NCBI RefSeq assembly: GCF_001940455.1
Contig: NZ_MKQR01000028.1
Coordinates: forward strand, 664,916-728,915
Source: Actinokineospora bangkokensis
GTDB taxonomy: Bacteria; Actinomycetota; Actinomycetes; Mycobacteriales; Pseudonocardiaceae
Length of the DNA stretch: 64,000 nucleotides
Direction of reading: 5' to 3'
Position 1 is the first letter of the stretch. Every line of letters starts with the position of its first letter. Positions 22,701-59,928 of the stretch are shown here, piece by piece. A program made the translations under genes and the position numbers. The notes under the pieces are model-generated. The model was not told the DNA's origin, ran no database searches, and saw only the letters and a program-made list of their open reading frames with translations.

Positions 22701-22974
22701 CGTCGCCTACGGCGCCTTCGAGGGCCGCAGCAAGGTGCCCGGGGGCGCGCGCCTGGTGTACGTGGCCAAGCCCGCGCGGGACGGCAACCCCACCGAGCGC
22801 GTCCAGGACCCGGTGGAGGGCGAGGTGCTCGACCACTGGCTGTCCATCGTGCGCGAGGCGGCGGCCAACACCGTCGGCCCGCACTACGACGCCTTCGAGA
22901 ACCCGGACTGCCCGCGCTGCCCGGTGCGCACCGCCTGCCCCCTGCACCCCAGCGGCCGACAGGTGACCGAGTGA
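19789..22974 (+). CDS. adnA: AdnA subunit of ATP-dependent helicase-nuclease
   Basis: 1061 residues, close to mycobacterial AdnA. The UvrD-like motor comes first: Walker A GGPGSGKTT near residue 45, VDDAQHLDPLQ, GDPDQAVFSFRG, and the late motif VAASRARAKLL. The C-terminal RecB-family nuclease has GRVDRVEVDEEGRPVIIDIKTGK. Cys residues in KCPLRW and in CPRCPVRTAC form the four-Cys pattern of an iron-sulfur nuclease clasp. AdnAB resects double-strand ends for recombination. ATG 19789. Its stop overlaps adnB by four bases. Confidence 0.93.
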   Translation: MAPGKSPLAPRLVRRPAAPRPVSRWAEGARRVLLGAAGGVRVLGGPGSGKTTLLAEVAAHRILRGGVDPGQLMVLTASRRAAVDLRARVTDLLSLHDPDTDLRTVREPLVRTVHSYAYGVLHAQAALREEPGPRLLSGPEQDQVFRDLLDGDLAAGAPRWPERLRPALSVPGFAEELRDLLLRAAERGFGPEDLAELGRREGRDEWVAAARFGRQYEEVMLLQGRADSAVALTSSPALDAAELVAGAVIAFETDPDLLTAERDRVRYLLVDDAQHLDPLQYRLISALGGAAKEFVIAGDPDQAVFSFRGADPAILRGVDPPGGTVVLDRGHRMSPAVRRAVSHLAARLPGTGKRKPDKDKAKGGTVTVRLHPSAAAEAAWVADQLRRAHLLDGVAWRDMAVLVRSATRSVPVLHRALAAAGVPVAAPGEELPLSQQPAIRPLLGVLRCAAEPAQLDVELAEMLLSSQLGGADPLALRRLRRGLRRLELAAGGDRSSDELLVEVLRDEDRLTALGDAEAGPVRRVWTLLHTAREGVLQRHAVERVLWDVWHASGLENRWVALAARGGPVGAQADRDLDAVVRLFYAAERYTERLPGASAAAFADFLIGQRIAGDTLARSAPQGDAVAVLTAHAATGREWTVVAVPGVQEGAWPDLRLRGSLLGVERLVDRLAGVGEEERLSATAPLLAEERRLLLVAASRARAKLLVSAVRGEEEQPSRFLAELAGAEEADDPDAAVPMAEPQRALVLADLVGELRRVVCDPGAAAEHRGQAARQLARLADAGVPGADPAGWYGLSEVSTLEPLRAVGSPVSVSPSNVELIAKCPLRWVVEKHGGQDPAQLAAITGTLVHALAQAAASGASREQLMAELDTAWTRVDAGAPWFSRRERQRVRGMVDTFLTWLHATRATLTEVGVERDVSVDLGDGITVRGRVDRVEVDEEGRPVIIDIKTGKSPVTAREAGEHPQLAVYQLAVAYGAFEGRSKVPGGARLVYVAKPARDGNPTERVQDPVEGEVLDHWLSIVREAAANTVGPHYDAFENPDCPRCPVRTACPLHPSGRQVTE

Positions 22975-25900
22975 GCCTGCCGCTGCCCGGCCTCGCCCTG
23001 GTGTCCCCGCGCGAGCTGGCCCACGAGCTCGGCCTGCCCGCCCCCACCGACGAGCAGGTCCGGGTGATCGCCGCCCCGCCGGAGCCGTCGCTGGTGGTGG
23101 CGGGCGCGGGCGCGGGCAAGACCGAGACGATGGCGGGCCGCGTGGTGTGGTTGGTGGCCAACGGGTTGGTGACCCCCGAGCGCGTCCTGGGCCTGACCTT
23201 CACCCGCAAGGCCGCCCGCCAGCTCGCCGACCGGGTGCGCGCCCGGCTGCGCCGCCTCGCCGGGTCCCCCCTGCTCGACCGCCTCGACCCCTCCGGTGAG
23301 CGCCGCGCGGCGGTGTACGCGGGCGAGCCCACCGTGCTGACCTACCACGCCTACGCGGGCAGGCTCGTCGGTGAGCACGGCCTGCGGCTGCCCGTCGAAC
23401 CGGGTGCCCGGCTGCTTACCGAGACCGGCTCTTGGCAGGTGGCGCACGGGGTGGTGGCGAGCTGGGCGAACGACCTGGAGACCGACTGGGTGCCCGCCAC
23501 CGTCACCGCCCGGCTGCTGGCGCTGGCGGGCGAGCTGGCCGAGCACCTGGTGGACCCCGACGCCCTGCGCGCGCACGCCGAGGCGGTGTGCGCGGCGGTG
23601 GAGAACGCGCCGCGGGCCAAGCGGCAGGCCGAGAAGCTGCCGGAGAAGCTGCGCGACGTGGTGCTGGCCCAGCGGTTCCGGGTGGCGCTGCTGCCGCTGG
23701 TGGAGGCCTACGCCGCGCGCAAGCGCAAGGAGGGCGCGATCGACTTCGGCGACCAGATGGCGCTGGCCGCGCAGCTGGCCGCCGGGTCGGCGGAGGTGGT
23801 GGTGGGCGAGCGCGAGCGGTACGGGGCGGTGCTGCTCGACGAGTACCAGGACACCGGGCACTCCCAGCGGGTGCTGCTGCGCTCGCTGTTCGGCGCGTCC
23901 CTGGAGCACCCGGACGCCGAGCCGATGCCGGTGACCGCGGTCGGGGACCCGGCCCAGGCCATCTACGGCTGGCGCGGCGCGTCCGCGGCGAACCTGCCCC
24001 GGTTCACCACCGACTTCCCCCGCCGCGACGGCGGCCGCAAGGTCCCCGCCGCCCGCTACGGGCTGCTCACCAGCTTCCGCAACCCCGAGGAGGTGCTCGA
24101 CCTCGCCAACGCCGTCTCCGCCCCGCTGCGCGCCGCGGGCCTGGAGGTCGACGAGCTGCGCGCCCGCGACGGCGCCCCGCCCGGCGACATCAAGCTGGCG
24201 CTGCTCGACGACGTTGACGCCGAGGTCGGCTGGGTCGCGGACCTGGTGGCCGACCGCTGGGGGTCGGTGCTGGCCGAGCGCGGCACCCCGCCGACCGCCG
24301 CCGTGCTGGTGCGCCGCCGCTCGGACATGGCCGACCTCGCCGCCGCCCTGCGCGCCAGGGGGCTGCCCGTCGAGGTCGTGGGCCTGGGCGGGCTGCTCGA
24401 CGAGCCGGAGGTGCGCGACCTGGTCAGCGCACTGCGCGCGCTGATCGACCCGCTGGCGGGCACCGCGGCCGCCCGGCTGCTCACCGGCGCGCGCTGGCGG
24501 GTGGGGGCGGCGGACCTGGCCGCGCTGTGGCGGCGGGCGCGGGTGCTGGCGGGCGCGTACGCGGTGAAGCCGGACGCCGCGGGGGCGGCCGACGCCATCC
24601 CCGGCGAGGGGGCCGAGCAGGCCGGGCTCCTCGACGCCATCGACGACCCCGGCCCGGCCGAGCAGTACTCCGAGCAGGGGCACGCCCGCATCCGCGCCTT
24701 GGGCCACGAGCTGACCGCGCTGCGCCGCCGCCTCGACCAGCCGCTGCCGGAGCTGGTGGCCGACGTCGAGCGCACGATGCTGCTCGACATCGAGGCCACC
24801 GCCCGCCGCGGCGGCGCGGGCCGGGCGCACCTGGACGCCTTCGCCGACGTGGTGGCCGACTACGCCAGGGCCAGCCCGGCCGCCGGGCTGGCCGCCCTGC
24901 TGGACTACCTGGCCACCGCCGAGGAGGCCGAGGACGGGCTCGAACCCGGTGAGGTGGAGGTCGCCGAGGACCGGGTGCAGATCCTCACCGTGCACTCGGC
25001 CAAGGGCCTGGAGTGGGAGGTCGTGGCCGTCCCGCACCTGGTGGAGAAGGTGTTCCCGAGCGGCCAGCGCGGCGGCAGCTGGCTGACCAACGTCACCGAG
25101 CTGCCCGCGGCCCTGCGCGGCGACTCCGCCGACCTGCCGGTGCTGCGCCTGGAGTCGGCGCAGGACCGCAAGGAGGTCCAGGAGCTGCTGGAGGAGCACA
25201 AGCAGGCGTTCGCGGAGCGGGGCCTGGTGGAGGAGCGGCGGCTGCTCTACGTCGCGCTCACCCGGTCCGAGCGCACGCTGCTGCTGTCCGGGCACTGGTG
25301 GGGGCGCACGTCCCGCAAGGGCCCGTCCCCGTTCCTCACCGAGCTGTCGGAGTACGTCGCGGGCCGCCGGTGGGCGTCGGGGGTGATCGACGTGTGGGAG
25401 CCGGAACCGGCCGAGGACGCCGAGAACCCGCTCGCCGCAGCGGTGAAGTCCGCGTCCTGGCCCGCCGACCCGCTGGGGGAGCGGCGGTTGCCGGTGCTGG
25501 AGGGCGCCGCGCTGGTGCGCGCGGAGCTGGCGGCGCTGCGCGCGGGGGAGGAGCCCGTCGAGGAGCACGACCCGTTCGGCTGGGTCCGCGACACCGAGGT
25601 GCTGCTGGCCGAGCGGGCCGCGGCGGGCAGGCGCCGCGAGGAGGTCGCCCTGCCCGAGCACCTGACGGTGAGCCAGCTGGTCGAGCTGGCCACCGACCCC
25701 GACGCCCTGGCCCGCCGCCTGCGCAGGCCCCTGCCCTTCCCGCCCAACCCCGCCGCCCGCCGCGGCACCACCTTCCACACCTGGCTGGAACGCCGCTTCG
25801 GCTCCTCCGCCCTGCTCGACCTCGACGAGCTCCCCGGCGCCGCCGACGCCGACGCCGCCCCCGACGACGACCTGCTGGCCCTGCAGGAGGCCTTCGAGCG

Positions 25901-26255
25901 CAGCCAGTGGGCCCACCGCACCCCCCACCAGGTCGAGGTCCCCTTCTCCACCGAGGTCGACGGCATCAACATCCGCGGCCGCATGGACGCCGTCTTCCCC
26001 GACCCCGACGGCGGCTGGACCGTCGTCGACTGGAAGACCGGCGCCATCCCCCCCGACGACCACCTCACCCCCATCGCCACCCAGCTCGCCGCCTACCGCC
26101 TCGCCTGGGCGGCCCTCCAGGACGTCCCCCCCACCAAGGTCCGCGCCGCCTTCCACTACGTCCGCCACAACCACACCCTCCACCCCACCGACCTCCTCGA
26201 CGCCGAAGGCCTCCGAGCCCTCCTCCGCGCCGTCCCCCACCCCACCCCCGACTAG
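22971..26255 (+). CDS. adnB: AdnB subunit of ATP-dependent helicase-nuclease
   Basis: 1094 residues. Superfamily 1 motor with Walker A AGAGAGKTETM, TFTRKAARQLADRV, Walker B LLDEYQDTGHSQ, GDPAQAIYGWRG, VHSAKGLEWE and VALTRSERTLLL. The C-terminal RecB-type nuclease has GTTFHTWLERRF, GRMDAVFPDPDG and TVVDWKTG (catalytic D and K). GTG 22971 overlaps the adnA stop, so the heterodimer is made in equal amounts. The last roughly 180 codons are extremely C-rich at third positions. The gene ends near a long inverted repeat, convergent with helR. Confidence 0.95.
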   Translation: MSLPLPGLALVSPRELAHELGLPAPTDEQVRVIAAPPEPSLVVAGAGAGKTETMAGRVVWLVANGLVTPERVLGLTFTRKAARQLADRVRARLRRLAGSPLLDRLDPSGERRAAVYAGEPTVLTYHAYAGRLVGEHGLRLPVEPGARLLTETGSWQVAHGVVASWANDLETDWVPATVTARLLALAGELAEHLVDPDALRAHAEAVCAAVENAPRAKRQAEKLPEKLRDVVLAQRFRVALLPLVEAYAARKRKEGAIDFGDQMALAAQLAAGSAEVVVGERERYGAVLLDEYQDTGHSQRVLLRSLFGASLEHPDAEPMPVTAVGDPAQAIYGWRGASAANLPRFTTDFPRRDGGRKVPAARYGLLTSFRNPEEVLDLANAVSAPLRAAGLEVDELRARDGAPPGDIKLALLDDVDAEVGWVADLVADRWGSVLAERGTPPTAAVLVRRRSDMADLAAALRARGLPVEVVGLGGLLDEPEVRDLVSALRALIDPLAGTAAARLLTGARWRVGAADLAALWRRARVLAGAYAVKPDAAGAADAIPGEGAEQAGLLDAIDDPGPAEQYSEQGHARIRALGHELTALRRRLDQPLPELVADVERTMLLDIEATARRGGAGRAHLDAFADVVADYARASPAAGLAALLDYLATAEEAEDGLEPGEVEVAEDRVQILTVHSAKGLEWEVVAVPHLVEKVFPSGQRGGSWLTNVTELPAALRGDSADLPVLRLESAQDRKEVQELLEEHKQAFAERGLVEERRLLYVALTRSERTLLLSGHWWGRTSRKGPSPFLTELSEYVAGRRWASGVIDVWEPEPAEDAENPLAAAVKSASWPADPLGERRLPVLEGAALVRAELAALRAGEEPVEEHDPFGWVRDTEVLLAERAAAGRRREEVALPEHLTVSQLVELATDPDALARRLRRPLPFPPNPAARRGTTFHTWLERRFGSSALLDLDELPGAADADAAPDDDLLALQEAFERSQWAHRTPHQVEVPFSTEVDGINIRGRMDAVFPDPDGGWTVVDWKTGAIPPDDHLTPIATQLAAYRLAWAALQDVPPTKVRAAFHYVRHNHTLHPTDLLDAEGLRALLRAVPHPTPD

Positions 26256-26547
26256 CTTCACCCCCCCAACCCCCCACCCCCACAGCCTTTCCGCCTTTCC
26301 CCTCAAACCAGCGCAACCCCCTAAGCAGCAGGAAGCCCGGCCAAGCCCCTGCTCGATGGGGTGGTTGTGCTTGGTCGGGGGAGGCGATCATGTGCTACCC
26401 AACGGGACGGGCGGGCGTCTTTTCAGCCCGCCTTTTCCCCGCCCGCAGCGCATGATCGCCGTAGGGGCCCCGACCCAGCAAAACCACCCCATCGAGCCCG
26501 CCCCCCAAATCCCGAAAGATCCGGGCGAAGCCCGATGCCCCCCAGCA
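26256..26547. other. Intergenic region between convergent adnB and helR
   Basis: 292 bases without a credible gene. About 95 bases of C-rich sequence follow the adnB stop; then a long imperfect inverted repeat fills 26351-26497. Confidence 0.7.
26351..26497. repeat. Long imperfect inverted repeat with inner hairpin
   Basis: The left arm starts GCTCGATGGGGTGGTT at 26351, and the right arm ends with its complement at 26497. Further in, TGC, GGTCGGGG and finally GGCGATCATG (26383-26392) also have partners, the last at 26451-26460, so arms of about 45 bases pair with a few mismatches and a small offset. The centre holds a separate hairpin (7-bp stem GGCGGGC, 26410-26432) followed by TTTT. It may be a bidirectional terminator or a dispersed palindromic element. 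Confidence 0.75.
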
Positions 26548-28719
26548 TCACCCAGGAACCAGCCCCGCCAACGCCTCAGGCAGCTCCCCCGAGTGCACCA
26601 CCCCCAACCGCTGCGTGGCCCGCGTCAACGCCACGTACAACTCCGCCTGCCCCCGCGCCCCCTCCGCCAGGATCCGCTCCGGGGCCACGACCAGCACCGA
26701 GTCGAACTCCAACCCCTTCGTCTGCGCCGCGGCGACTGCGCCCGGCACGCACGCAGGCCCGATCACGACGCTGGTCCCCTCCCGACCGGCCTCCTCCCGC
26801 TGGAACTCGGCCACCGCCGCCGCCACCTCGTCCTCGGGCACCCGGCGGGCCCACGGCCGCACGCCGCAGGCGCGGACGGACTCCGGGGGTTCGGTGCCGG
26901 GGGAGAACCCGGCCAGCACGCGGGCGGCGACGGCCATGATCTCGGCGGGGGTGCGGTAGTTGACGGTGAGGGCGCGGTAGACCCAGCGGCCAGGGACGTA
27001 GCGGTCGAGCACGGACGACCAGGAGCGGGCGCCCGCGGGGGAGCGGCGCTGGGCGAGGTCGCCGACGATGGTGAAGGAGCGGTTGGGGCAGCGGCGCATG
27101 AGGACGCGCCAGTCCATCTCGGACAGTTCCTGGGCCTCGTCGACCACCACGTGCCGGTAGGTCCAGGACCGGTCGGCGGTGGCGCGCTCGACCAGGTCGC
27201 GGGTGTCGCGCTCGACGAAGCGGTCGGCCAGGTCCGCCGCGTAGACCATGTCCTGCGGGAGCAGGTGGTCCTCGTCGTCCATGAGGTCGTCGCGGCGGTC
27301 GACGGCCAGGATCTCCAGCACGCCCGCGGCGTACTCGGCCTCCGCGCGCCACTCCCGCTCGGCGGTCCTGTCCTCGGGGCCGGTCGGGCCCAGCAGGTCG
27401 AACAGCTCGTCGAGCAGCGGCACGTCGGACACCGTCCACGCCTCGCCGTCGGCGCGCAGCAGCGACGCGGGCGCCCCCGCGGCGCGCAGCCGCTCGGGGG
27501 AGGACAGCAGCTCGCCCAGCAGCTCCTGCGGGGTCAGCACCGGCCACAGCTGGTCGAGGGCGGCGGTGAACGCCTCGTCGTCGGCCAGCTCCGCCAGCAG
27601 GTCGGCGCGCAGCTCCTCCCAGGCCGCCTTGTCGTCGCGGCTGACCCAGCCGCGCCCGACCCGCGGGATCGCCCGCTCGGTGAGCACGTAGGTGATGACC
27701 TCGGTGAACACCGCCCGCGCCTGGTTGTGTGGCAACCCGCTGTCGCGCGCCTCCTGCCTGGCCCACTCGGCGGTGGCCGCGTCGATGCGCAGCGCCACGT
27801 CCGACAGCTCGACCGGCAGCGGCTCGGCGGGCAGGGACTGCCGGTCGGCGATGGCCGCCCGCAGCACGTCCAGCACCCCCAGCGACCCCTTGACCGCCGC
27901 CGCCCCCTGGTCGTCCTCCGCGGTGGCGCGCAGCCCCGGCACCAGGCCCCCGGTGGTCGTGAACACCACGTCGGACTCGCCCAGCGACGGCAGCACCCGC
28001 CCGATGTGGTGCAGGAAGGCCGGGTTGGGCCCGACCACCAGCACCCCGTGCCGCTCCATCTGCTCGCGCTGGGTGTAGAGCAGGTACGCGACGCGGTGCA
28101 GCGCCACCACCGTCTTGCCCGTCCCCGGCCCGCCCTCGACCACCAGCACCCCGGGGTGGTCGAGCCGGATCACCTCGTCCTGCTCGGACTGGATGGTGGC
28201 GACGATGTCGCGCATGCCCTCCCCGCGCGGCGCGTTCACCGCCGCCAGCAGCGCGGCGTCGCCCCGCGCGCCCCCGCCGGGCCGCGCGAAGTCCTCGTCG
28301 GTGAACTCCACGACCCGCCGCCCCCGCGTGAGGAACTGCCGGCGCCGCCGCACGCCCTCCGGGTGCGCCCCGGTGGCGGTGTAGAACGCGCGGGCCGCGG
28401 GGGCGCGCCAGTCCAGCAGCACGGGCTCGTAGTCGTCCTCCTCGTCGAACAACCCGATCCGCCCCACGTACTGCCTGCCCCCGCCCACCGCGTCCAAGCG
28501 GCCGAAGCACAGCCCGCTGTCCGCCACGTCCAGCCGCCGCACCTCCCGCCCCGCGATGCGCACGGCGTCGTCCCGCTGCACGATCGGCACACCCTCGTCC
28601 CGCAGCGCGCCCGCCAGCACCCCCCGTGCCCGCGCCCGCTCCGCGTCCAGCCGCGCGTAGAGCCCCCGGACGTGCTCCCGCTCCGCCCGCAACTCGTCCT
28701 CGTACACCTCGGTAGCCAC
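26548..28719 (-). CDS. helR: HelR, helicase-like RNA polymerase-protecting ATPase
   Basis: 723 residues from GTG 28719, which follows GGGGAG. UvrD-like superfamily 1 ATPase of the HelD/HelR group: a coiled N-terminal arm (ELRAEREHVRGLYARLDAERARA), Walker A GGPGTGKT with K202, VVVDEAQELSEMDW, GDLAQR, and a late VALTRATQRLG. HelR proteins displace rifamycins from RNA polymerase and free stalled polymerase, giving rifampicin tolerance. Assignment to HelR rather than general HelD rests on the rifamycin-associated element at 28795-28815 in its promoter. The short tail of the preceding gene ends just before that element, so helR has its own promoter. Confidence 0.9.
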   Translation of the reverse strand: MATEVYEDELRAEREHVRGLYARLDAERARARGVLAGALRDEGVPIVQRDDAVRIAGREVRRLDVADSGLCFGRLDAVGGGRQYVGRIGLFDEEDDYEPVLLDWRAPAARAFYTATGAHPEGVRRRRQFLTRGRRVVEFTDEDFARPGGGARGDAALLAAVNAPRGEGMRDIVATIQSEQDEVIRLDHPGVLVVEGGPGTGKTVVALHRVAYLLYTQREQMERHGVLVVGPNPAFLHHIGRVLPSLGESDVVFTTTGGLVPGLRATAEDDQGAAAVKGSLGVLDVLRAAIADRQSLPAEPLPVELSDVALRIDAATAEWARQEARDSGLPHNQARAVFTEVITYVLTERAIPRVGRGWVSRDDKAAWEELRADLLAELADDEAFTAALDQLWPVLTPQELLGELLSSPERLRAAGAPASLLRADGEAWTVSDVPLLDELFDLLGPTGPEDRTAEREWRAEAEYAAGVLEILAVDRRDDLMDDEDHLLPQDMVYAADLADRFVERDTRDLVERATADRSWTYRHVVVDEAQELSEMDWRVLMRRCPNRSFTIVGDLAQRRSPAGARSWSSVLDRYVPGRWVYRALTVNYRTPAEIMAVAARVLAGFSPGTEPPESVRACGVRPWARRVPEDEVAAAVAEFQREEAGREGTSVVIGPACVPGAVAAAQTKGLEFDSVLVVAPERILAEGARGQAELYVALTRATQRLGVVHSGELPEALAGLVPG

Positions 28720-28794
28720 GCGCTCCCCACTTGCTCCTGCCACGGGGCACCCCCATCCGGCACCCGCTTCGGCGGGCGATTCTGGGGCACGCAC

Positions 28795-28815
28795 GGGGTC
28801 TTGCGGCAAGACCCC
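28795..28815 (-). promoter_or_regulatory. Rifamycin-associated element (RAE)
   Basis: Two perfect 10-base arms, GGGGTCTTGC and GCAAGACCCC, flank one central base. This reproduces the CTTGC/GCAAG core and G/C flanks of the published element found before rifamycin-inactivating and helR genes. It lies 75 bases upstream of the helR start. On the coding strand TTGCCG inside the element could serve as a -35 box, with CAGAAT about 18 bases on as a -10; that part is tentative. Confidence 0.85.
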
Positions 28816-28822
28816 CGGTGCG

Positions 28823-29326
28823 CTATACGTTGAAGTGGGAGGACGTGGTTCCTCTACTCCTTGGGCGATCGCCCGCGTGACCAGGCCCCGTTCGCTTCAC
28901 GCCCGGCGCGGTGCGCGTCCGCCGCCACAGCTCCACGAGCCCGGCGCCGCCGATGCCCGCGAACACCATCAGCACCACGCCCACCGGTCGCGCGTCGAAG
29001 GTCGACCCCGCGTTGGCCGACAGCAGGTGAACCACGTCCCCGGTCCCCACCGCGATCTCCACGACCTCGCCCTCGGAGTGCCCGCACGCGTCCAGCGAGG
29101 CCGTCCGCTCCCCGGCGCCGTCGGTCCAGCGCACCTGCTCGGGTTCCGGGGACGAGCAGCCCGCGGCGCGCACGACGGTGGCCGAGGCGGGGGTCAGCGC
29201 GGCCTCGGACGTGGACCAGTGGCCCAGGGCGCCGAGGAGGGCGAGCACCAGGGCGACCACGATGCTGAGTGCCGCGACGGCCGCCGCGGTGAGCAGCGGG
29301 TGGGGCGGCGCGGGGCGGGCGCGCAC
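28823..29326 (-). CDS. Hypothetical membrane protein
   Basis: 167 residues from GTG 29326. Two hydrophobic segments, about 12-35 and about 112-130, enclose an outside loop with two Cys (AAGCSSPEP and DACGHSE) that could pair. The C-terminus is basic and presumably cytoplasmic. Family not recognised. It lies between the ion channel and helR on the same strand, 32 bases from the channel gene's end, and may be co-transcribed with it. Confidence 0.65.
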   Translation of the reverse strand: MRARPAPPHPLLTAAAVAALSIVVALVLALLGALGHWSTSEAALTPASATVVRAAGCSSPEPEQVRWTDGAGERTASLDACGHSEGEVVEIAVGTGDVVHLLSANAGSTFDARPVGVVLMVFAGIGGAGLVELWRRTRTAPGVKRTGPGHAGDRPRSRGTTSSHFNV

Positions 29327-32361: not shown

Positions 32362-34104
32362 GTGTTGACGAAATGGGCCGTCGCCGCCGCGGTGGCCGGC
32401 ATCGCGCTGGGGGCGGCGCAACCCTCCTTCCCGTCGCCGCCGAGCGACGCGCCGTCCCTCGACTTCCCGGTGCCCTCGGCGGGCCCGGCGCCGAGCCGGG
32501 GCGGTGTCCCCACGGTCAACCCGGTGCCGCCCACGGGCACCGACAAGCCCACGCACCCGCCGGGGGTGCCCCAGCCGCCGCTGCCGCGCAGCGTCAACGT
32601 GCAGCTGAAGGTGGAGCGCGACGGTCGGCTCACCGTCCGCGAGCAGGTCATCGTGCAGGCCAGGCAGACGATGACCCGCACGGCCCCGCTGCGCATCGGT
32701 GACCGGGTGTTCACCGTGCGCGACCCCAGGGTCGAGGGCAACGGCACCGCCGCGGTCGAGGGCGACTCCCTGGTCCTGCGGCTCGGCGAGGGCGCGTCCA
32801 CGGTGGACTACACCGTGGACGGCACCGTCGAGGACCTCGGGGACCGCCTGCGGTTCCGCTGGCAGATCGCCAGCGGCTGGGACACCGTGCTGGTCTCGGT
32901 GCGCGCCTCCCTGCTCACCCCGCAGCGCGGCTCCGACTTCGCCTGCCTCGCCGGGCCCGCGGGCACCGAGGACAAGTGCGACTCCGCGCTGACCGACGGC
33001 GGCGCCGTGCTGCGCGTCGTGCAGTCCAACCTGGACCAGGGCGCGCGCGTCGACCTCTCCGCCGACCTCCCGGCGGGGTCGGTGCCCGCCACCGCGCGGT
33101 TCGAGGCCGCGTCGGCCGCGTCGGCCGCGTCGGCGTTCGCGCTGTCCCCGCTCAACGGCGTCGGGTTGGGCGCGGGGTTCCTGCTGCTGCTGGCCGGATT
33201 CGCCGTGCTGTGGCGCGCCCGCGCCCGAGACGGCCGCGCCCTGGGCGGCGAGGTGGAGCCGGTCGCGCTGCTGGACGACCGGGGCGGCGAGGTCGTGTTC
33301 GCCTCACCCGACGGCATCCTCCCCGGGCAGGTGGGGGCCGTCGTCGACGAGCGGGTCGACGCCCGCGACCTCAGCGCCACCGTCGTCGACCTGGCCGTGC
33401 GCAACTACCTGTGGGTCACCGAGGTCGACGGCGACTGGCAGGTGGTGCGCCGCAACCCGGCTGATGACGCGCTCACCGCCTACGAGAAGGCCGTCTACAC
33501 CGCGCTCCTGCCGGAAGGGGTCGAATCCGTTCGGCTTTCCCGGCTGCGCGCCGAACCGCCGTCGATCGCCCCCGCGCGGGACGCGGTGTACCGGGACGCG
33601 GTGTCGCGCGGCTGGTTCACCCGCAGGCCCTCGGCGTTCGGGCCGCTGGGCATCGCGGGCGCTGTCCTGCTGGTGCTCGGCGTCGGCGGCACCGTGCTGT
33701 TCGCGGTGCTCGGCGGACCCGCGCTCATCGGCGTCGCCGTCGCGATCGTCGGCCTGGCGGTGCTCGCGGGCGGGCGGCTCCTGCCCCTGCGCACTGAGCG
33801 CGGCAGCGTCCTGCTCCAGCAGGTGCGCGGCGTGCAGGGCTTCCTCAACACCGCCGACCCGGGGTCGGTGCCCGCCGCCCAGCGGGAGATGGTGTTCTCC
33901 CGCGCGTTGCCCTACGCCGTCGCCCTCGACGACGTGGAGCAGTGGTTGCAGCGGTTCGGCGGGCTGGACCCCGCGGCCGACGGCACCCCGGGGCTGTACT
34001 GGTACGCCACCCAGGACCCGGCCGCCGCGGGCGACCAGCAGCGCTTCGGCCAGCAGTTCCGCGCGTTCCTCGACGGGCTCGACGAGGTGTTCGCCACGGC
34101 CTGA
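32362..34104 (+). CDS. DUF2207 family membrane protein
   Basis: 580 residues from GTG 32362. A signal-like N-terminus and Pro-rich stretch precede an extracellular beta domain (about 75-250) characteristic of DUF2207. A membrane helix (GVGLGAGFLLLLAGFAVLW) follows, then a cytoplasmic region containing YEKAVYTALLPEG, two adjacent membrane helices (about 435-490), and a last cytoplasmic domain. Role unknown. It is divergent from the zinc peptidase gene with about 88 bases between starts. Confidence 0.82.
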   Translation: MLTKWAVAAAVAGIALGAAQPSFPSPPSDAPSLDFPVPSAGPAPSRGGVPTVNPVPPTGTDKPTHPPGVPQPPLPRSVNVQLKVERDGRLTVREQVIVQARQTMTRTAPLRIGDRVFTVRDPRVEGNGTAAVEGDSLVLRLGEGASTVDYTVDGTVEDLGDRLRFRWQIASGWDTVLVSVRASLLTPQRGSDFACLAGPAGTEDKCDSALTDGGAVLRVVQSNLDQGARVDLSADLPAGSVPATARFEAASAASAASAFALSPLNGVGLGAGFLLLLAGFAVLWRARARDGRALGGEVEPVALLDDRGGEVVFASPDGILPGQVGAVVDERVDARDLSATVVDLAVRNYLWVTEVDGDWQVVRRNPADDALTAYEKAVYTALLPEGVESVRLSRLRAEPPSIAPARDAVYRDAVSRGWFTRRPSAFGPLGIAGAVLLVLGVGGTVLFAVLGGPALIGVAVAIVGLAVLAGGRLLPLRTERGSVLLQQVRGVQGFLNTADPGSVPAAQREMVFSRALPYAVALDDVEQWLQRFGGLDPAADGTPGLYWYATQDPAAAGDQQRFGQQFRAFLDGLDEVFATA

Positions 34105-59534: not shown

Positions 59535-59928
59535 GCGGGCGAGTCGGCCGGGCGGCCGCGGCGGGGGGTTCCCCCGACGAGGAAAGTCCGGACTCCGCAG
59601 GGCAGGGTGGTTGTTAACGGCAACCCGGGGTGACCCGCGGGACAGTGCCACAGAGAGCAGACCGCCTGGTGGCGACACCAGGTAAGGGTGAAACGGTGGT
59701 GTAAGAGACCACCAGCGCCCCGGGTGACCGGGGCGGCTAGGTAAACCCCACCCGGAGCAAGGCCAAGAGGGGGTCCTCGCGGACCCCTGCGCAGGCGTTC
59801 GAGGGCTGCCCGCCCGAGCCTGCGGGTAGGCCGCTGGAGCCTGCCGGCGACGGCAGGCCTAGATGGATGGCCGCCACCGGGGCCCCGCGCCCCGGGACAG
59901 GATCCGGCTTACACGCCGGCTCGCCCGC
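59535..59928 (+). ncRNA. rnpB: RNase P RNA, bacterial type A
   Basis: GCGGGCGAG at the 5' end pairs with CTCGCCCGC at the 3' end (helix P1). Conserved blocks include GAGGAAAGTCCGGACTCC, CAGGGTGGTTGTTAACGGC, ACAGAGAGCAGACCGCC, GGTAAGGGTGAAACGGT and GATGGATGGCCGCC, and GACAGGATCCGGCTTACA near the end. About 394 nt. Catalytic RNA that trims the 5' leader of tRNA precursors. Confidence 0.97.

Follow-up and report, generated by a model that had tools for sequence, protein, structure and literature searches.

A rifamycin-associated element with two putative opposed promoters upstream of helR in Actinokineospora bangkokensis

This report concerns the rifamycin-associated element (RAE) which lies upstream of helR in a 64,000-nucleotide stretch of the Actinokineospora bangkokensis genome (contig NZ_MKQR01000028.1, positions 664,916 to 728,915), called here the window. 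That helR is found behind an RAE is already known. According to the part of a review that was accessible to us (PMC10719064), the RAE of mycobacteria overlaps the -35 region of sense promoter 2, and deletion of the upstream half of the RAE abolishes induction; a paper of January 2026, likewise available in part, describes what reads the RAE as unknown. In Bacillus subtilis, helD is repressed until rifampicin is present by an antisense promoter that is stronger than the sense one, has a spacer of 19 bp and gives rise to a terminated RNA of ~90 nt; when this promoter is inactivated helD expression becomes high and uninducible (PMC12802891, accessible portion).

Like the RAE-helR loci of Streptomyces venezuelae and Mycobacterium abscessus, the Actinokineospora locus combines a class II HelD ATPase possessing the PCh-loop residues with an RAE palindrome upstream, and the same role is predicted for its product. 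Unlike the accounts of those loci, which in the parts available to us treat the RAE as a 19-bp palindrome awaiting its factor and mention neither a mirror antisense promoter nor a hairpin, our analysis suggests that helR is under an RAE whose palindrome serves two opposed sigma-A-type promoters as a common -35 region, and is probably an operator as well. This is the account towards which we lean, with some reserve. The element resembles the B. subtilis helD/pps alarm (PMC12802891, in its accessible text) in its putative antisense promoter, 19-bp spacer and related resistance genes, and perhaps in a short terminated antisense RNA, which the sequences predict for some of the elements. It differs in geometry: the promoters of B. 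subtilis converge, their starts lying 39 bp apart, whereas those proposed here would be divergent around one palindromic -35 region with predicted starts 66 bp apart; a convergent pair with starts ~39 bp apart is not what the element displays. As in the bidirectional promoters caused by symmetry (PMC10268837, seen in part), a symmetric sequence would drive transcription both ways, although here it is the -35 region that is symmetric, and the symmetry belongs to a single drug-response regulon. Caulobacter DriD is comparable in that the 20-bp pseudo-palindromic site of this activator overlaps the -35 region of the bidirectional driD promoter; it differs in binding single-stranded DNA after DNA damage, and the available portion of the paper draws no link to rifamycins (PMC12340889). 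What appears, from sequence comparison, to be new is the mirror-promoter anatomy, the terminator-like antisense RNA and the presence of the element before arr in Stenotrophomonas. A literature search that did not extend to the primary RAE/HelR papers found no RAE antisense promoter, terminator-like RNA or Stenotrophomonas arr element.

The palindrome (GGGGTCTTGCsGCAAGACCCC, 28795..28815, no strand assigned) has a single base between two perfect 10-base arms, and its centre, 28805, is the midpoint of a composite element. The sequence-only reading had described it as a 21-base element with perfect 10-base arms 75 bases before the gene, and so it is; the element is real, but these 21 bases are only the middle portion of a larger one. 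A perfect palindrome is in itself no proof of an element because such palindromes are common in this GC-rich DNA: the window holds three with arms of at least 10 and a gap of 0-1, 40 simulated windows average 1.35, and 29 of the 40 contain at least one with arms of that length. We therefore rejected the palindrome alone as proof. The agreement with the RAE consensus, which we take to be GGGGCTTGCGGCAAGGCCC, does exceed chance. At up to three mismatches this 19-bp consensus is matched at one place in the window, the palindrome, where the better strand departs from it at 2 positions and the opposite strand at 3; shuffled windows yielded a mean of 0.16 matches, and none of 100 shuffles had 2.

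To assemble a set of such elements a 17-bp core, GGNCTTGCNGCAAGNCC, was searched for in named genomes (among the matches listed) and in samples of genomes from the same family and the same class, 30 loci being taken from each sample. The core is present in 107 of 150 same-family and 129 of 296 same-class genomes. The collected loci contain 184 core sites, among them the duplicates L003/L004/window and L001/L133, which enter the counts of elements once each. A relative of helR, rox, rgt or rph follows 115 of the sites (tblastn, E ≤1e-8). The other 69 were separated by a profile built from the flanks only into 17 elements (score >5) and 52 chance matches (score < -16). The resulting 129 distinct elements (68 from named genomes, among the matches listed, 58 from the family and class samples and three from this genome) comprise 50 before helR, 34 before rox, 16 before rgt, 11 before rph and 18 others. 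These others include seven before arr, six of which, and a fuller stretch of the seventh, exceed the cut-off of the Arr model; two are rox-like (one seemingly internally deleted), one is Rgt-like, one HelR-like, one begins like HelR, and one precedes a DHA2-type MFS efflux pump (L042). The remaining five are unreadable since the stretch ends or is masked. Because the 17 elements were admitted through a flank score that uses the -10 positions, a set of 111 elements, chosen by palindrome core and neighbouring resistance-type gene with the flanks unused, omits them together with L085. The latter had first been oriented by its neighbouring helR match and was then reversed, as its flanks and rgt gene fit the other way; the per-column base frequencies given below still include it in the wrong orientation. 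The chance group consists of 52 unoriented sites of low flank score, one of which (L114) is clipped by the end of its stretch.

Two members of this collection deserve separate mention. In Actinoplanes aureus (L042) the centre of a full RAE element lies ~104 bases before a DHA2-type MFS transporter ORF (229-1797), a possible extra member of the rifamycin regulon. The rox-like ORF at L134:746-1462 agrees with the beginning of the rifampin monooxygenase model and picks the match up again no earlier than position 284, as if its middle were missing.

Among the 129 distinct elements both strands carry the same arrangement: TTGCsG, a 19-bp spacer and a -10 hexamer beginning at +21 from the palindrome centre. 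On the antisense strand TANNNT is found at +21 in 127/129, against 0-2% at every other offset from 9 to 69; on the sense strand A2/T6 (nAnnnT) occurs at +21 in 127/129, against at most 18% at the other sense offsets from 9 to 69. At the 52 chance palindromes A2/T6 reaches only 2-4% at +21. The only other offset exceeding 50% is antisense +27, where A2/T6 is found in 55% and TANNNT in 1%. Base frequencies over +21..+26 are C.91 A.99 G.71 A.94 A.86 T.98 on the sense and T.98 A.99 N N T.89 T.98 on the antisense strand, where positions 3-4 vary freely as in a real -10. Within the flank-blind set of 111, antisense TANNNT and sense nAnnnT are each present in 109, the exceptions being L111 on both strands, L123 on the antisense and L019 on the sense strand; the hexamers of L123 and L019 are shifted by one base. 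A two-promoter anatomy of the RAE element is likely on comparative grounds, and the conservation of the antisense -10 argues that the antisense arm is used.

In the window the putative sense promoter (minus strand) would consist of the -35 hexamer TTGCCG (28804..28809) within the palindrome, placed by the 19-bp spacing, and the -10 hexamer CAGAAT (28779..28784) at +21..+26 from the centre. Its presumed antisense counterpart (plus strand) would consist of TTGCGG (28801..28806) in the same palindrome and, again at a 19-bp spacing and at the mirror offset +21..+26, TACGTT (28826..28831). Two other assignments were tried and abandoned. The upstream box, read as a sense -10 (TATAGC), is unlikely to be one because its sixth base is C in 96%; and an antisense spacing of 17 bp to TATACG, taken from the three copies in this genome, was replaced by 19 bp to TANNTT, the bases kept in relatives deciding the matter. 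By position, the sense promoter would be the mycobacterial promoter 2, whose -35 overlaps the RAE. No conserved box for M. smegmatis promoter 1 is visible upstream of -45 in our alignment; the mapped M. smegmatis starts are given only as distances in the available part of the review (PMC10719064).

A search with the flanks only, in the neighbourhood of the 29 best-scoring HelR relatives from 100 family genomes, recovered the element for 20 of them; its distance to the HelR match downstream is 66-1454 bases. In all 20 the core GGnCTTG(C/T)SGCAAGnCC is kept, though not required by the search. Nine of these elements (L205, L208, L209, L215, L217, L222, L223, L224 and L225) lie 894-1454 bases upstream of the HelR relative; the gap has room for another gene, perhaps in an rgt-helR operon.

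The antisense strand has a further conserved feature, a GG at +33/+34 (G in 97 and 95%), seven bases past the last base of the -10; the predicted antisense start coincides with it. The counts that follow cover 126 or 127 of the 129 elements, the others being clipped. A hairpin often begins at this GG: a stem of at least 7 pairs is present in 68/126 elements, and in 39 the 8 bases that follow it include 4 or more U. Nine control offsets show this combination in 0-3%, and mononucleotide shuffles in 1%. In full the tally of 126 is hairpin and U-run 39, hairpin alone 29, U-run alone 4 and neither 54. The mean folding z-score is -1.17, versus 0.05, 0.40 and 0.10 in three control stretches. The antisense hairpin arms form 6.42 of 9 pairs with their own partner versus 5.68 when swapped (sd 0.08, 300 swaps, n=127). 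For the sense side the figures are 4.87 versus 4.78 (sd 0.06), and covariation is almost absent. The 39 hairpins with a U-run have a median length of 25 nt, so that an RNA of ~30 nt is predicted, and the antisense promoter may often start exactly at the hairpin and yield a self-terminating transcript. By comparison with the group, the antisense start of the window is predicted at 28838 and the hairpin region at 28838..28862 (plus strand), the window's own hairpin being weak and without a U-run. No Rfam family matches the element at the gathering threshold (six sources). An upstream ORF of 167 aa without a Pfam or NCBIfam match (28823..29326, minus strand) has its stop codon next to the antisense -10 (TACGTT), with which its last two sense codons, AAC GTA, coincide; this overlap may constrain the window's antisense -10.

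The central 11-mer CTTGCNGCAAG occurs at three places in the 7.45-Mb genome; the reversed pattern, used as a control, occurs at two. All three RAE sites (3/3), which have their flanks in common, stand before genes of rifamycin-resistance type: helR, an Rgt-like glycosyltransferase gene (L001), directly upstream of which lies a gene for a Rox-like monooxygenase, and an Rph gene (L002). The Rgt-like protein [537 bits] falls under its curated cut-off of 800, as does the Rox-like protein [rif_monoox 291, cut-off 800; 302 with model PRK06834]; the Rph protein scores 733 under a cut-off of 999. The Rox and Rph scores are those of partial frames, both reading frames ending at the edges of the retrieved stretches. 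The sequence-only reading had proposed a search of the genome for further copies of the element, and the outcome is these three sites in total, each before a resistance-type gene. It had also stated that the window contains no modifying enzyme; tblastn with the Rgt-like, Rox-like, part-Rph and Arr proteins gave no match in the window at E 0.001. Its interpretation is supported in part: the view of a HelR behind an RAE, in a window lacking such enzymes, is borne out, but Rgt-like, Rox-like and Rph genes are present elsewhere in the genome. In the RpoB of this genome (L263) residues D516, H526 and S531 are kept and N518T, L521I and S522A are found relative to Escherichia coli RpoB, with what we take to be its sequence and numbering at the rifampicin site.

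The helR gene (26548..28719, minus strand) specifies a class II HelD/HelR RNA-polymerase recycling ATPase of 723 aa with a GTG start (complement of 28717-28719). A longer ORF starting at 28809 was rejected because the palindrome would contain that start. The product exceeds the NCBIfam cut-offs for HelD_MYCSM [NF041465; 1297 bits, cut-off 1051] and motor_HelR_2 [NF041258; 1285 bits, cut-off 1100], but not that of motor_HelR [446 bits, cut-off 750]. Of the proteins with a solved structure, M. smegmatis HelD matches it best [6yxu, 1114 bits, residues 5-723]. Walker A is located at residue 197, DWRAP at 103 and DEAQE at 527. In the alignment with 6yxu the PCh-loop residues E484, D485 and Q490 of M. 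smegmatis HelD are kept as E483, D484 and Q489; the former are tied to rifampicin resistance or contact in the available text of the review (PMC10719064). The earlier call of a HelD/HelR-type ATPase is borne out by these matches. Release of rifamycin from RNA polymerase is the role predicted for this protein. The genome holds two further HelD paralogues, neither of them at any of the three RAE sites.

The element is carried by Actinobacteria, by some Pseudomonadota and perhaps by Gemmatimonadota. It was found in two rox-like contigs binned as Gemmatimonadaceae metagenome-assembled genomes (binning unchecked), in one Bradyrhizobium (rox-like, degenerate) and in Stenotrophomonas maltophilia PC315, before arr. 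Within the genus Stenotrophomonas the core is present in 37 of 91 genomes, and of the 30 loci read, 29 (L233 and L235-L262), which represent 24 distinct sequences, have it in front of arr. Each of the 29 possesses sense TAGACT, with A2/T6 kept, and antisense TAC/ATCT, both at +21; by eye, a GC-rich hairpin and then a U-rich tract follow on the antisense strand. In a Pseudomonadota sample searched with a pattern that already required -10 bases, 5 of 398 genomes matched; four of them belong to the Stenotrophomonas set, and the fifth has the layout before an Arr gene. A linked regulator gene outside Actinobacteria was considered and rejected: ten neighbour ORFs at four loci, compared with Pfam, share no regulator family between loci. 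L202 has a regulator with a BTAD domain next to a Fic protein whose HTH match stays under the threshold; neither recurs at the other three loci.

We may now consider how the element might operate. The sense promoter (TTGCsG-19 bp-cAnAAT) would transcribe the resistance gene, and the antisense promoter (TTGCsG-19 bp-TANNTT), which has the better -10, would produce the short RNA. Because the two -35 sites coincide, RNA polymerase should be unable to occupy both promoters at once. The antisense promoter would be the default occupant and would help to keep the gene quiet, a rifamycin signal at the palindrome would let the sense promoter fire, and HelR would then free polymerase bound by rifamycin. 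In a stricter version the RAE would promote transcription symmetrically in both directions, and its antisense arm, yielding nothing but a hairpin RNA of ~30 nt, would be the working part of the alarm, keeping the resistance gene silent until rifamycin disables that arm; this is possible but doubtful.

Several observations weigh against the two-promoter account. The first base of the sense -10 is C in 117/129 elements and the full TANNNT is present there in 2/129. The GG/CC at positions 7-8, kept in 20/20 flank-found elements, extends conservation beyond both -35 hexamers, which makes the arms resemble a protein site. The 54 elements with neither hairpin nor U-run, and the copy in the window itself (as L003, z = -1.1), fit poorly with a terminated RNA. 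As the element sequences are related, the percentages overstate the independent evidence. In B. subtilis the promoters are convergent, and moving them closer abolished regulation (PMC12802891, accessible portion). A steady-state calculation of passive competition between promoters with a shared -35 gave 0.02-1.00 of the uninduced output under rifampicin over seven settings, so that passive occlusion as the sensor, which in this simple model led to induction at none of them, was rejected. This leaves two possibilities: a factor that binds the palindrome and conveys the signal, or an antisense arm that works in some other manner. Finally, the whole two-promoter case rests on sequence. Comparison shows the element itself, its symmetry and conservation, the covariation of the hairpin and the association with particular genes; from these we infer promoter activity, the antisense RNA, its repressive role and induction in this organism.

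The near-invariance of a core that the flank-only search did not require, in excess of what a -35 needs, might suggest instead that the RAE is simply the operator of a dimeric rifamycin-responsive transcription factor, the flanking boxes serving that factor or being a by-product of the operator's symmetry and the antisense promoter having no function of its own. Such a factor has been suggested by the review (PMC10719064) and by the 2026 paper, in their available parts, and the site of DriD (PMC12340889, seen in part) provides a precedent for its position. Yet a functionless antisense -10 should decay, while TANNNT is retained in 127/129, and the ten neighbour ORFs at the four non-actinobacterial loci reveal no common regulator family; in the absence of a common linked regulator the factor would be a host protein present across phyla. 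We consider this explanation unlikely, if not greatly so.

RNA polymerase itself could be the sensor, as in B. subtilis helD, if its arrest by rifampicin at the busier antisense promoter freed the sense promoter without any dedicated factor. The related genes (helD, rph/pps), the better antisense -10, the 19-bp spacer, the predicted short terminated antisense RNA and a layout found in other phyla with no shared linked regulator are consistent with this, and rifampicin is described as affecting two interfering promoters of M. smegmatis rpoBC differently (PMC10719064, accessible part of the review). The divergent promoters share their -35 region, however, so that a polymerase arrested there ought to obstruct the sense promoter as well; and at the seven settings the calculated output never rose above 1, the uninduced level. 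A polymerase acting in this way seems to us rather improbable.

It is very improbable that the upstream hairpin and box have nothing to do with the RAE and simply belong to a neighbouring gene, as its terminator and end: the upstream ORF of the window does end beside the box, but in many genera, and in front of helR, rox, rgt, rph and arr alike, box and hairpin keep a constant spacing to the RAE, which largely excludes the idea, and the box is absent at chance palindromes. Scarcely credible is a constitutive housekeeping HelD with a palindrome there by chance, for although perfect palindromes of this size are common in GC-rich DNA and the HelD_MYCSM score is slightly above that of HelR_2, the match to the RAE consensus, the full flanking element and the three genome sites, each before a gene of rifamycin-resistance type, all speak against it.

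Elsewhere in the window, a UvrD-like helicase gene with a C-terminal PD-(D/E)XK nuclease domain (22971-26255) is convergent with helR and contains a longer perfect palindrome, with arms of 12 (24869-24893), probably by chance. Between the two genes (26330-26510) is an imperfectly palindromic repeat of ~150 bp which is found at no fewer than 41 places in the genome with 77-100% identity (40 of 178 first-look candidates scored) and is a member of an interspersed repeat family. A tRNA-Pro (TGG) is located at 32476-32562 on the minus strand and a class A RNase P RNA at 59540-59927 on the plus strand.

Among front-line drugs are the rifamycins, and in Actinobacteria several routes of resistance to them have the RAE as a common switch. 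With the proposed promoter pair and minimal antisense RNA, a small number of simple tests could address the question of sensing, and the occurrence of the element ahead of arr in Stenotrophomonas shows where a carrier of the signal must be present. If the antisense arm is indeed the working part of the alarm, the RAE would represent a second, differently built solution beside that of B. subtilis.

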